Below, in pieces: positions 20,560 through 47,960 of a stretch of 64,000 nucleotides of DNA. Positions within the stretch are counted from its first letter, which is position 1; each line of letters begins with the position of its first letter. The position numbers were made by a program, and so were the translations under genes. Source of the stretch: Isoetes taiwanensis (Eukaryota > Streptophyta > Lycopodiopsida > Isoetales > Isoetaceae). The stretch spans positions 26,145,831-26,209,830 of the forward strand of contig JAJEKV010000004.1 in assembly GCA_021234155.1 (NCBI GenBank), read 5' to 3'. The notes beneath the pieces are model-generated. The model was not told the DNA's origin. It did not search any database and worked only from the letters and a program-made list of their open reading frames with translations.

Positions 20560-20668
20560 GCTATCTCCTCTCTATTTTTCTCTACCTCTTTCTACTCTCC
20601 ATTTCTCCCTATCTCTACTATCCCTCCCTCCCTCCGTCCTCCCCCCTCCCCCCCTCTCTCTCTACTTT
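20560..20668. repeat. CT/CCCT-rich tract at the 5' junction of LINE L3
   Basis: A pyrimidine-rich degenerate microsatellite ending in CTCTCTCTCTA directly precedes the truncated LINE copy. Confidence 0.8.
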
Positions 20669-20679
20669 ATATGGAACAA

Positions 20680-21250
20680 GGTGAAGTAGAAAATGTGGAG
20701 CGTGGCCAAACTGAAAATGGAGGGCTATAGAAAGTGGATGAATTCTGCTTTAGATGAAATGCCTTACTTAAGGGAAACAGTCTCACTACACAAGCTAGGC
20801 CCACAATATGTAGGATGCATCTTAGTTTACACCATCTAGGCATTGAGGTGGGTCGATGGGAAACATACCACAAGAGCTTCGACTGTGCAAATTATATGAA
20901 CAGAACACTTTAGAGGATGAGAATCATGTTATCCTCTAATGCCCAACCTACCAAGATTTGAGAGGGCATTATGCGGTTCAGGCCAACACTATTTTGGAGT
21001 TTTTCAGCTTTCCTGCAAAGGTAAATGAAAATTTTCTATCAGATATTCTAGAATTGAGAACAATATGTGTGGGGGTACAAAGCACTTCAGGAGGATTATG
21101 AGTCATGTTTAGGCCAGTAGACTGGTACTCTTCCAACTGTGGAAGACACTGTATAAAACTTTTTGGTTGAAACTTTTTGCTTGTACAACACTACGTCTCA
21201 TGGACCTGACAGTCTAGTAGGCGAAAATAATCAAATCTCCCTTCCTGCCT
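20680..21250 (+). mobile_element. LINE copy L3, 3' fragment
   Basis: Only the region encoding the C-terminal end of ORF2 and the 3' UTR remains. The words GTGGAGCGTGGCCAAACT, ATGCCTTACTTAAGGGAAAC and GAGGATGAGAATCATGTTAT match the end of L12 (46920-47450). The hairpin at 21193-21223 has lost one inner pair. The tail GCGAAAATAATCAAATC is the variant shared with L12, not the ATTTC tail. (CT)n follows at once. Confidence 0.85.
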
Positions 21251-21338
21251 CTCTCTCTCTCTCTCTCTCTCTCTCTCTCTCTCTCTCTCTCTCTCTCTCT
21301 CTCTCTCTCTCTCTCTCTCTCTCTCTCTCTCTCTCTCT
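21251..21338. repeat. (CT)44 microsatellite
   Basis: An uninterrupted CT run after the 3' end of LINE L3. The long Glu/Arg and Ser/Leu open frames over it are meaningless. Confidence 0.98.
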
Positions 21339-21366
21339 TGCGTCGGCCACATGCTCCAAATTTCTT

Positions 21367-21424
21367 TTATCTCTCGTGCTATACGGCGAGAGATAATTTT
21401 TATACCGTATACCACGAGAGATAA
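21367..21424. repeat. Inverted repeat with 20-bp arms
   Basis: TTATCTCTCGTGCTATACGG and CCGTATACCACGAGAGATAA pair over 20 positions with one mismatch, around a loop that itself contains GAGAGATAA. A smaller copy (GAGAGAT-aata-ATCTCTC) follows at about 21428-21445. It resembles a miniature foldback element lying directly beside the CT tract. Confidence 0.75.
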
Positions 21425-21565
21425 TGAGAGATAATAATCTCTCGTCACTTAACAAGCCAGTTAGGGACAATAATAAAGCCTTTGTCGTATTTCTTTTTTC
21501 GGCATTACGGAAATTTCTTAGGTTCTCTCCTCCCCTGTTTCTTCACGAGTGCAAACGAGTGCAAA

Positions 21566-44470: not shown

Positions 44471-44575
44471 AGTGATGAGCTAGATGAGGACTCGGAAACT
44501 CATCTATTGTTTTATGACATTGTGTAATTTTTGTTGTCTAATAGGCCCTGAGGCCTCCCAATAGACACAATACAT

Positions 44576-44716
44576 TCTCTCTCTCTCTCTCTCTCTCTCT
44601 CTCTCTCTCTCTCTCTCTCTCTCTCTCTCTCTCTCTCTCTCTCTCTCTCTCTCTCTCTCTCTCTCTCTCTCTCTCTCTCTCTCTCTCTCTCTCTCTCTCT
44701 CTCTCTCTCTCTCTCT
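44576..44716. repeat. (CT)70 microsatellite
   Basis: Pure CT run between LINE L10 and LINE L11. Confidence 0.98.
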
Positions 44717-44822
44717 GAGGATGCATTAGATGATATTTTTTATAACTTTGAATGTGCATAGTGTGAACGTCTTCTAGACCTGATGGTCTCACAGACGTGA
44801 TAAATAAACATTTCATTTCATT
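44717..44822 (+). mobile_element. LINE copy L11, 106-bp 3' fragment
   Basis: Holds only the last codons of ORF2 (GAGGATGCATTAGATGATAT), the intact hairpin (44768-44797) and the ATTTC tail. It is an extreme 5' truncation between two CT tracts. Confidence 0.88.
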
Positions 44823-44839
44823 TCTCTCTCTCTCTCTCT
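44823..44839. repeat. (CT)8 between L11 and L12
   Basis: Short CT tract joining the L11 tail to the truncated 5' end of L12. Confidence 0.95.
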
Positions 44840-47448
44840 ACAAAGCAAAAATGAACATAGAGCTATGTGATCATAAAGCAAAAAATGTACAATTGCCAGA
44901 AAAGGCTAACGATATAGATGCTAAGCTCAGTGCTATCTTGCTAGATGCCGCAACTGAATGTTTTGTCTCTTTTCAAAGAGCCCAAGGGTTGCCATGTAAC
45001 CAGGGGTTTATAATGAATGCAAACAGCCGAGTAAGTCTTACAAAGAAGCTAAAGGGGAAGATAAGTTGGAAAAGGGAAACATCTATATGAAAATAGTAAG
45101 AAGAAAGAAAGCGAATATACAGCAGTAAAGCAACGGGAAATGGTAGACATGATGACAAAGGATCCGAAAAAATTCTGGAGTAAGCTGAAAAGTAAGGCGG
45201 CTACAATGTCAGAATTAGATCTTGACACTTATAAACCAAATTAAGAAGTTGTACTATGTAAATGGGATCGATGAGAAATTGGAAAAAAAGCAATGATAAT
45301 TTATTGATTTACGTTGTAGATGGTAAGATGGGAGTTCATAAACTTGCTAATGGGAAGGCATCAGACATGTTTGGGCTAACGGCTGAGATGCTTAAGTGGG
45401 TAGGACCAGTGATGGCAGAAGTGATTGGTAAATTGCTAACAGCCAATTCACATGCATAATGGCAACCCTCACCATCACGTAAAAAGGCAAGCCCTTTTAC
45501 ACGCACCATCATCTGCCATCGCCAAAAAGCACAGGGCAAAACAGGACCTCTCTCCGGCGATGGTTGCATGTGAACCCAGCCTAAAGGTTGCTATACGGGA
45601 TGGTTTTTCACACAGCTGGCAAATGAATAGGGTAGTACCTATGCATAAACCAGGGGATACGGGGAATCCCAACAACTACAGAATGATCATGGTGAGCAAT
45701 CTCTTTGCAAAGCTTTTTACAACTATTGTAGATCATAAAATAAGCTCCTGGGCAGAGGAGACTGGAAAAAGATCTAGATGCAAGCATGCTTTAGACCTAA
45801 AAAAGCTACAGTTAACCATATCTTGGTTCTCAAGACTACAATAGACTCAGTGAAGAAGATGAAGAACCCACTTTTTACACTTTTTGTTGATTTCTCCAAA
45901 GCTTTTGATACAGTAAAAAGAGCAAACATATGGAAAAGAATGGAGAAACTAGGGGTCCCAGCACATTTCCAGAATACGGTTGCTACACTATATGAAAAAG
46001 TGTGGGTACACTTATCCTTCCTTTTGCCATAGGATATGGGAATTGAAAGCAATATTGGGGTTAAACAAGGATGTCCATTGTCACCTACTTTGTTTGGCAT
46101 TTTCATTGATGAGTTGGAAGATTGGATTTCGAACAATGGAGGAGATGGAGCAACACTAATGGGATATATAATATTTCTGCTATTATATGCTGATGATGTG
46201 GTTATCTTTTCTAGAAGTGTGGGGAGGTTACAAAAACACTTAGCTGCTCTAGCAGCTTTTTGTGACTCGATGGATATGAGCGTCAATCTATCCAGAACAA
46301 AAATTATGATATTTGGCACTCAGAAGATGGATAGATATGTTTTTTACTATAAAGGAAAAAAGGTGGATATAGTATCTACCTATAAATATCTAGGCTTACT
46401 AGTAGATCAATCATACAGGTGGAATAAGACGGTGGATGGAGGAGTAGATGGGGGGCTGAAAGCCTTATATGTGATGCAGAGACAATGCAAGAATGCAGAA
46501 ATTGTTGTTTTGGGCTAAAGAAAAAATTGTTCTATTCCTTGGTTCAACAGGCAGTCTTATATGGATGTGCAATATGGGGGTCTGGTTTATCATTGGACAG
46601 ATGGAAGAAGGTAGAAAGAGTCCAAAAGAAATTTCTACTTGCTGAAATGGGAGTAAAGGTGCAGACACCTTATGCTATCTTGCTAGCAAAGACAGGTCTA
46701 ATGCCTTTAGAGGGTGAAGCCCTATGCCAGACAATTATATATGTATGGAAATTGCGGGCTTTGGATGACCACGCTTTGCCGCATGCTGCTATGAAACATA
46801 GCGAGAGCAAGGGATGATATGTTGAAAATGGCTTCAAAAATGGAGCATCGCTGTTGAGAAGATCCCATCAAATGCGTTGCAAGCAAGAATATTTGTGTTG
46901 GACAAAGTAAAACAAAAAATGTGGAGTGTGACTAAACAAAAATATGGAGAGTGAATCCAGAGTTGGTTGAAATGCCTTATCTGAGAGAAAACATCTCATT
47001 ACAAAAGAGGCATACAACATGTAGAGGATGCGTTTAGCTCACACCATCTAGGTATTGAGGTGGGTCGGTGTGAAGACATACTGAAAGAACTCCGGCTGTG
47101 TAGATTATGTGAGAACACTATAGAGGATGAGAATCATATCATTTTACAATGTTCAGCTTACCAAGGTCTGAGAGGACACCATGTGGTTTAGGCCAATACT
47201 CTTGGGGAATTTTTCAGGCTTCCTGCAAAGGTAATTGGCAAATTCTTAACAGATATCCTAGAATTGAGAGAACAATATGTGGAGATATAAAACACTTTTA
47301 GAGGACTATGAATCGTGTTTGGGAGAGGAGACCGGTACTCTCCCAATTGTGGGAGAGGCTGTATAAACTTTATGTTGTTTACAATTTTTCTATTTGTGTA
47401 AAAATGTATCTCATAGACCTGATGGTCTAGTAGGCGAAAATAATCAAA
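44840..47448 (+). mobile_element. LINE copy L12, truncated after the endonuclease
   Basis: Begins in the linker after the endonuclease (ECFVSFQRAQGLPCN) and continues through RT pieces: NRVVPMHKPGDTGNPNNYRM (45627 on), LFTLFVDFSKAFDTVKRANI (45868 on), GVKQGCPLSPTLFGIFIDEL and LLYADDVVIFS (46180-46215), and the thumb CAIWGSGLSLDRWKKVERVQ. A 130-bp hairpin-ended insertion interrupts it at 45445. Hairpin 47405-47435 and tail GCGAAAATAATCAAATC, then CT. Same subfamily as L3 and L13. Confidence 0.93.
45445..45576. mobile_element. Small MITE-like insertion in LINE L12
   Basis: A 10-bp perfect inverted repeat TTCACATGCA/TGCATGTGAA (45447-45456 and 45565-45574) bounds about 130 bp foreign to the LINE. 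CAGCC occurs on both sides (45440-45444 and 45577-45581) and could be a 5-bp target duplication. Confidence 0.55.
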
Positions 47449-47487
47449 TCTCTCTCTCTCTCTCTCCCTCCCTCCCTCCCTCCCTCC
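47449..47487. repeat. (CT)n then (CCCT)n
   Basis: CT units followed by four or five CCCT/CCCTC units between LINE L12 and L13. Confidence 0.95.
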
Positions 47488-47960
47488 GTGAGATATATGA
47501 TATTTCTTTTTGCTATATGCTGATCATGTGGTTATATTCTTCAAGAGTGCTTCAGGGCTACGAAAGCATCTAGACTTGCTTTCATCTTTTTGTGAGGCCA
47601 TGGATATGCAGGTGAATCTACCTAAAATAAAAGTGGTCATTTTTGGTACACAAAAGAATGACCACTATAGTTTCTCCTACGAGGGGAAAAAGGTAGACAT
47701 ATCATCTATTTACAAATACTTGGGCATATATTGGTGGAACAAAGTAGTTAATCAAAGAGTAGATGATGGTATGAAATCATTGTTTGCAATGCAGAAACAA
47801 AGTTAGAAGTTAGATATCATTGACTTTGGGCTGAAGAAAAAGTTATTTTGCACCTGAATTAGGGATAAACGTGAAAATACCCTACGCTATGATGCTAATT
47901 GAAGCTGGTTTAATACCATTGGAAGAAGAAGCACTCTGCCAGACTGTTGCATATGTATGA
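47488..47960 (+). mobile_element. LINE copy L13, RT fragment without 3' end
   Basis: Starts in the RT palm. The active site reads YADH (47515-47526), so a catalytic aspartate is lost. The thumb follows with KYLGIYWW and a deletion, and the sequence leaves the LINE near 47960 without hairpin or tail. Confidence 0.85.

Follow-up and report, generated by a model that had tools for sequence, protein, structure and literature searches.

Why do copies of a long interspersed element (LINE) lie head to tail on one strand of a plant genome with CT microsatellites between them? The question is raised by a 64-kb stretch of the quillwort Isoetes taiwanensis (contig JAJEKV010000004.1, positions 26,145,831 to 26,209,830 of assembly GCA_021234155.1), called the window below. 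The evidence makes it very likely that a LINE lineage of this plant targets (CT)n/(GA)n microsatellites via target-primed insertion and thereby stacks head to tail.

CT microsatellites flank the LINE copies of the window

By translated and nucleotide self-comparison of the 64 kb, we recognized 13 LINE copies (C1–C13), all on the + strand, within positions 1–6748 and 20664–47960. A first-pass annotation of this DNA was right that the copies share one strand but had counted about eleven; C1 and C2 lie upstream of the range that it covered (20560–47960). Among C2–C13, homology with further copies defines the 5′ start of 10 of the 12, and all 10 starts lie 0–28 bp after a microsatellite. This tract is CT or CCCT for seven copies (C3–C6 and C11–C13), (CTAT)14 for C9, and (CT)32(CA)24 for C2, and C7 is preceded by (CT)74 and then 28 bp of decayed CA-rich DNA. 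The earlier statement had CT or CCCT before nearly all copies; the tract type is broader than pure CT and includes CCCT, CTAT, and CA compounds. CT also stands at the head of C8 and C10; as no other copy matches the first few hundred bases of either, we presume their starts from the reading frame.

The 3′ sides of C1–C12 could be assessed, and 10 of these 12 run into CT or CTCC. Ten copies (L3–L12 in its numbering) had been described as followed by CT or a related tract. Of the two exceptions in our count, C2 has no CT after its end and C8, which has lost the last ~45 bp, terminates in (CTAT)14. A 106-bp copy said to sit between two CT runs was located at 44717–44822 (C11, a 3′ end with CT tracts on both sides). 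The window contains 14 pure (CT)n tracts of 10 bp or longer, and each of them is at a border of a LINE or of a short interspersed element (SINE), one being inside the compound tract before C4. Pure GA of that length occurs once (15937–15947, 11 bp), away from such borders. Aligned stretches of the window copies are ~64–93% identical and their truncation points differ, which argues that the copies are separate insertions and rules out tandem duplication as the origin of the stack.

Genome copies found with a CT-free motif start at CT

The whole assembly (1,658,258,908 bp, 1110 contigs) was searched for further copies, and numbered loci from this search carry an L below. Full-length copies at several loci share a start near GGACGCTAGGGTTTC...GAAAGCCATAGCTCTCACAT, directly after CT. 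The internal motif GAAAGCCATAGCTCTCACAT of the 5′ untranslated region, itself without CT, has 57 exact genome matches (27 forward and 30 reverse), and its reversed control has no exact match in the genome. As the decisive and unbiased test of the 5′ side, we examined the upstream flank of all 57 copies for (CT)4 or more within 75 bp on the sense strand. CT was found upstream of 53 of the 57 copies, and GA, by the same measure, upstream of none. In compound tracts, the portion adjoining the element is usually CT, and the tracts differ from locus to locus. The background rate is 225 of 59,580 positions (0.4%, both strands; window 6760–20550 and 48000–64000, which are free of C1–C13). At a generous background of 1%, the binomial probability of 53 in 57 is 4e-101 if the copies are taken as independent, which L012/L019 (the same as L078/L079) are not. 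These two full-length LINEs are on the same contig, 37 kb apart, with 155-bp upstream flanks that are 99% identical, and are probably a segmental duplication and hence non-independent insertions.

Four motif copies fall outside this count. L060 has TCTCT directly after the tail of another LINE, L088 has CCCCTATCTCTCT upstream, L099 has (CCCTCT)n, and at L082 other DNA lies between the LINE and CT, which is 92 bp from the motif. The first-pass annotation had set out beforehand two patterns that would speak against targeting: unique, non-CT flanks at most copies, and copies in both orientations relative to the CT strand. Neither is seen, since CT lies upstream of 53 of the 57 copies and GA upstream of none, although the copies run in both genomic directions.

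The same data bear on an assembly artifact, in which chimeric joins would have formed at long CT tracts. Several tracts are indeed 90–152 bp of pure CT, and the assembly was made from Nanopore, Illumina, and Bionano data according to the genome report (PMC8566536). However, five junction tracts in the window are only 17–56 bp (24281–24298, 32541–32589, 39035–39090, 44823–44839, and 47449–47487), and the strand agreement holds at 53 of 57 distinct loci, so that we consider an artifact extremely improbable.

The 3′ ends of genome copies also run into CT

The first genome query, a tail, held nine bases of CT, and its matches are therefore biased for 3′ CT. It gave 39 matches outside the window: CT follows the tail in all 20 long loci, and the other 19 matches have (CT)4 or more in 17 cases, a CTCTCCC compound in L046, and only TCTCT and then GT in L050. 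A bias-free tail pattern without CT gave eight exact matches, all of which run into CT; the eight include C9 itself and two that lie 37 kb apart in an apparent segmental duplication. We also examined the 3′ side of the first 20 of the 57 motif copies, locating the 3′ end in 11 and not finding it at the guessed distance in nine. A pyrimidine tract lies within 45 bp after the 3′ end in 9 of the 11 (six CT and three mixed, the latter in L114, L117, and L126). Thus, the target repeat is present on both sides of most copies, in a fixed orientation to the target strand.

Truncated copies and tract clusters at other loci

An automatic rule applied to L009–L028 and L037–L055 gave 48 LINE 3′ ends next to CT, 33 of them with the 5′ end inside the stretch; these 3′ ends are defined by CT and come from loci of the CT-biased query, so that only the 5′ sides test targeting. 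By the same rule, 24 of the 33 have a pyrimidine or CA tract no more than 60 bp from the 5′ start, a looser criterion with a background of 3.4% of positions. Nineteen of the 24 are 5′-truncated and five are full-length; weak cases among them are L017, with an 8-bp tract, and the copy at 4660 in L028, where the tract is the end of an element with terminal inverted repeats (TIRs). On inspection, the copies of L009, L022, and L023, missed by the rule, also start at CT, and those of L013 and L027 diverge toward the 5′ end and are too divergent to judge. In L010, L011, L016, and L021, the copies start in non-CT DNA.

These starts bear on the idea that CT is part of the element RNA at both ends, with transcription starting in or reading into flanking CT, and is carried to any target. 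Most full-length copies have 5′ CT (53 of 57), 3′ pyrimidine tracts follow 9 of 11 ends, and read-through would yield a CU tail, all as this idea expects. Yet 5′-truncated copies would be unable to carry 5′ CT and still start at tracts at many truncation points, and each locus has its own compound 5′ tract. We accordingly judge carriage of CT by the RNA to be very unlikely.

Tract clusters of at least 20 bp in the 20 long loci and the window number 72 pyrimidine versus four purine, which likewise indicates a fixed orientation relative to the target strand. A LINE end adjoins 56 of the 72 pyrimidine clusters, 20 of these on both sides. In this count, the reference left out pieces of whichever long locus was being tested, but the reference pieces, here as in the 33-copy test, had edges set at CT tracts.

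A 1.6-kb repeat with 16-bp TIRs (14 of 16 positions matched) lies at window 21339–22960 and also in L018, L024, L026, L028, and L042. CT or CT-CA is present at most of its ends that were seen, although not at its 3′ end in L028. It is SaTar-like, a DNA transposon in CT tracts shared with the LINEs and a candidate for CT targeting, in loci that were all found beside LINEs.

Such an element gives some standing to a further explanation, that modules ending in CT spread through homologous recombination from one microsatellite to another, a route proposed for SaTar elements, or were reshuffled by ectopic exchange. There is a plant precedent in microsatellite-joined arrays of unrelated elements (PMC5907723), and the TIR element occupies the same CT tracts here. 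Nevertheless, target-primed reverse transcription (TPRT) is what characteristically keeps 3′ ends constant while truncating the 5′ side to varying extents, and exchange between 3′ tails alone could not place CT on the 5′ side. Recombination thus appears to us a highly improbable source of the arrays.

A SINE of the same genome shows a one-sided pattern

The SINE family served as a control. All seven SINE copies with a visible 5′ flank near LINEs follow CT, in loci that were found beside LINEs. For a genome sample, we used the 20 best copies after the window's own, from 40 scored among 2,222 first-look candidates. A 5′ pyrimidine tract is present in none of these 20, and a (CTAT)-type 3′ tail in 19, which together indicate a self-made tail and no CT targeting by the family as a whole; the proposal that the SINE is CT-targeted too was therefore dropped. 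A few truncated SINE copies of 35–50 bp are located in CT tracts.

A self-made tail is expected to leave this one-sided pattern, which is absent from the LINE, so that two-sided CT flanking is specific to the LINE. The comparison also bears on the possibility that slippage in reverse transcription produces the 3′ CT alone, and that the stacks reflect frequent landing of elements in one another's tails. CT does follow most LINE tails, and the SINE demonstrates that a simple-repeat 3′ tail can be self-made in this genome. Against this, 53 of 57 LINE copies have CT on the 5′ side, some without a LINE tail in the flank examined, where the SINE has none in 20, and landing in tails with such regularity would itself be CT targeting. 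Slippage alone is consequently a very unlikely account, if not quite so remote as those considered above.

Tail types, encoded proteins, and classification

The LINE has at least three tail types, A (..AATAAATAC(TTTCA)n), B (..GGCCCTGAGGCC..), and C (..GGCGAAAATAATCAAAT), and all three have members running into CT-type tracts. Folding of 11 tails predicts a 3′ stem-loop in all but that of C7. It is similar in different tail types, and 89.1% of its pair cells hold standard pairs versus 26.6–47.7% when slid. Similarity between LINE and SINE tails is weak, with shuffle p values of 0.005 to 0.18 over seven tails.

A reverse transcriptase (RT) domain is encoded (C8, 36219–38204; RVT_1, E 1.5e-29). 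An endonuclease (EN) of the apurinic/apyrimidinic endonuclease (APE) type is N-terminal to the RT, with an Exo_endo_phos match above cut-off in open reading frame (ORF) 2 of L009 (E 1.2e-5) and one below cut-off in C10 (4e-4); a sequence comparison of the C10 endonuclease with PDB gave no relevant chain. A profile of four ORF1 proteins matches the LINE-1 ORF1p chains 2ykp/2yko (E 3e-6), in keeping with an ORF1 of the kind with a coiled coil and an RRM-like (Transposase_22) domain. Single ORF1 proteins match weakly, Transposase_22 being found in one of four (E 0.009, below cut-off), and C8 ORF1 alone gave nothing relevant in PDB. A simple L1 label is opposed by the window RT, which by sequence is closer to R2 (1.1e-24) than to LINE-1 (4.5e-15) among PDB chains; the RT of a relative, P0001, has LINE-1 as its best match (4.7e-24). 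On sequence comparison, the lineage appears L1-like, mainly by its ORF1 and endonuclease type.

Between its CT tracts of 102 and ~131 bp, the L026 copy retains 1014 open ORF2 codons (3924–6965 in the element's direction), without the first part of the endonuclease, a sign of fairly recent activity. The best protein relative aligns with 98% of the RT query at 41% identity, and some shorter relatives are from Adiantum, Riccia, and Klebsormidium; none were found in the viral_contigs and genome_contigs collections. A (CT)n tract read as SLSLSL precedes the relatives' proteins in none of 120 listed matches when four repeats are demanded and in one of 120 in another listing with three.

Proposed insertion mechanism

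The constancy of the 3′ ends, the truncation at the 5′ side, and the fixed orientation together suggest TPRT that begins with a nick in the GA strand. The endonuclease would nick this strand of a CT/GA microsatellite, and the freed GA 3′ end would anneal to the element RNA at its CU-like 3′ terminus and prime reverse transcription. Slippage might then extend (TTTCA)n and (CT)n, and the cDNA would be joined to the upstream CT. An insertion of this kind would leave CT on both sides and thus a new landing site, so that later copies could land up- or downstream, in the same direction, and build stacks.

Several observations weigh against microsatellite targeting or its mechanism. C2 ends in TTTCATTTCATTTTGCAAG with no CT after it; among the motif copies, the 3′ end of L125 is followed by no tract and that of L113 only by TCTCT. 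The starts of L010, L011, L016, and L021 in non-CT DNA belong here too, although these 5′ ends were possibly interrupted by other elements, as do the CT-defined 3′ ends and CT-set reference edges described above. Covariation in the stem-loop is weak: on the five measures, 32 to 222 of 500 shuffles do as well as the real alignment. Finally, we infer GA-strand nicking, re-creation of the target, and the existence of the tract before insertion from the finished arrangement of elements and tracts.

It is quite possible, although somewhat less likely than not, that CT microsatellites act as a self-renewing one-way landing strip. Each LINE insertion would leave and extend CT on both sides, stacks would grow in one direction, and the lineage itself would have built a substantial part of all long CT tracts in the genome. 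The TIR transposon and a few SINE copies would colonize these tracts as well.

Feature map of the window

All features in this paragraph and the next are on the + strand. C1 (1–3071) has part of the EN, the RT, the C-terminal domain, the 3′ stem-loop, and (TTTCA)n, its 5′ region being cut by the window edge. It is separated by (CT)32(CA)24 (3072–3182) from C2 (3183–6748), which carries a ~590-bp insert at ~4575–5165. A CCCT/CT tract (20637–20663) precedes C3 (20664–21239), which is 5′-truncated and has a type-C tail with CT ~10 bp after its end, in (CT)45 (21249–21338). A CT/CCCT tract (22967–23011) precedes C4 (23010–24280), 5′-truncated, with a type-A tail and terminal (CATTT)4. The tRNA-like SINE (24299–24503) lies between CT tracts and has its own (CTAT)n tail. 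C5 (24585–25006), 5′-truncated and 92% identical to C1, is followed by (CT)51 (25007–25108) and C6 (25109–32238). C6 is split at ~25690–31366 by a ~5.7-kb insert with ends GGCACCCAAA/TTTGGGTGCC, a TIR-type DNA transposon.

Then (CT)74 (32239–32386) leads to C7 (32387–32540), a very short 3′ end with a type-B tail and homology from 28 bp past CT, and a CTCC/CT tract (32541–32589) separates C7 from C8. C8 (32590–39034) is the longest copy, with a presumed 5′ start, ORF1 (34795–35697), an EN with two in-frame stops (35715–36530), and the RT; the last ~45 bp of its tail are missing. (CTAT)14 (39035–39090) separates it from C9 (39091–40051), which is 5′-truncated with a type-A tail, 92% identical to C4, and followed by (CT)76 (40052–40203). 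C10 (40204–44575) has ORF1, EN (41272–41730), RT, and a type-B tail, its presumed start being an ATG directly after CT. C11 lies between (CT)70 (44576–44716) and the 17-bp (CT)8 (44823–44839). C12 (44840–47448) is 5′-truncated, with a type-C tail and a ~130-bp insert at ~45445–45580, and a CT/CTCC tract (47449–47487) leads to the fragment C13 (47488–47960), whose 3′ end is lost.

Inside C8, on the opposite strand, an element from 32880 to ~34700 has an L1-like ORF1 (35% identity to C10 ORF1) and a (TTCC)n tail. No RT match and no target duplication were found for it there, and it looks like an ORF1-only element, which we take to be HAL1-like. A more distant LINE-like RT C-terminal fragment at 61918–62043 (or from 61880) starts directly after a TCTAC-type pyrimidine repeat. 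A plant gene fragment lies on the minus strand at 12577–13533 and is presumably SPEAR-like; its best named relative is from Selaginella, Cryptomeria is also among the named relatives, and Gb_ identifiers look like Ginkgo. A minisatellite of GGAAACCTCCCCAACTTTCCC-like units lies at 14837–14988 and nearby, with inverted copies at 15031–15089 and 17670–17755. Scans of the window for tRNAs and against Rfam gave no matches.

Comparison with known systems

If the targeting proposed here is correct, a plant LINE lineage chooses a microsatellite, and it would provide a naturally occurring endonuclease of the APE type whose target is a simple dinucleotide. Target specificity would be joined with a 3′ stem-loop of a type put forward as the ancestral state of green-plant L1s (PMC3747384), and mutual amplification of microsatellites and LINEs would be suggested. 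As a caution, CT microsatellites in the I. taiwanensis genome may often be transposon junctions.

Kibi elements are animal non-LTR (non-long-terminal-repeat) retrotransposons specific for (TC)n. The TC/GA target is the one proposed here; the host is an animal rather than a plant.

Target-specific LINE families are described as concentrated in early-branched groups, Tx1, and R1, the last two with APE-type endonucleases, and microsatellites are among the recorded targets, as for the (TG)n-specific Togen of fish (PMC4640811). Togen resembles the quillwort LINE in its microsatellite specificity but is NeSL-related, from a clade with a restriction-like endonuclease, and has a TG target, whereas the quillwort LINE has an APE-type endonuclease and a CT target. 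In the open-access literature searched, we found no counterpart of a plant LINE with a microsatellite target, and the words "non-LTR" and "interspersed" are absent from the main text of the I. taiwanensis genome paper (PMC8566536). The element is therefore of a known kind, microsatellite-specific LINEs, in a plant lineage that is new within the reach of that literature.

Green-plant L1-clade LINEs share the APE-type endonuclease, and the 3′ stem-loop is like the "stringent" kind described for a maize/sorghum lineage (PMC3747384). Flowering-plant L1s, as surveyed there, almost all end in poly(A), whereas the quillwort LINE has no such end but (TTTCA)n followed by CT, and is target-specific.

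The first-pass annotation knew of no plant case of this kind, which stands within the literature searched; among plant DNA transposons, SaTar MULEs (Mutator-like elements) of guayule and rice do target microsatellites (PMC5907723). Like the copies described here, they are plant elements joined end to end via microsatellites. They are, however, nonautonomous DNA transposons in diverse microsatellites (PMC5907723), with TIRs and without RT, whereas the quillwort LINEs encode RT and EN, are reverse-transcribing and 5′-truncated, and lie in one orientation.

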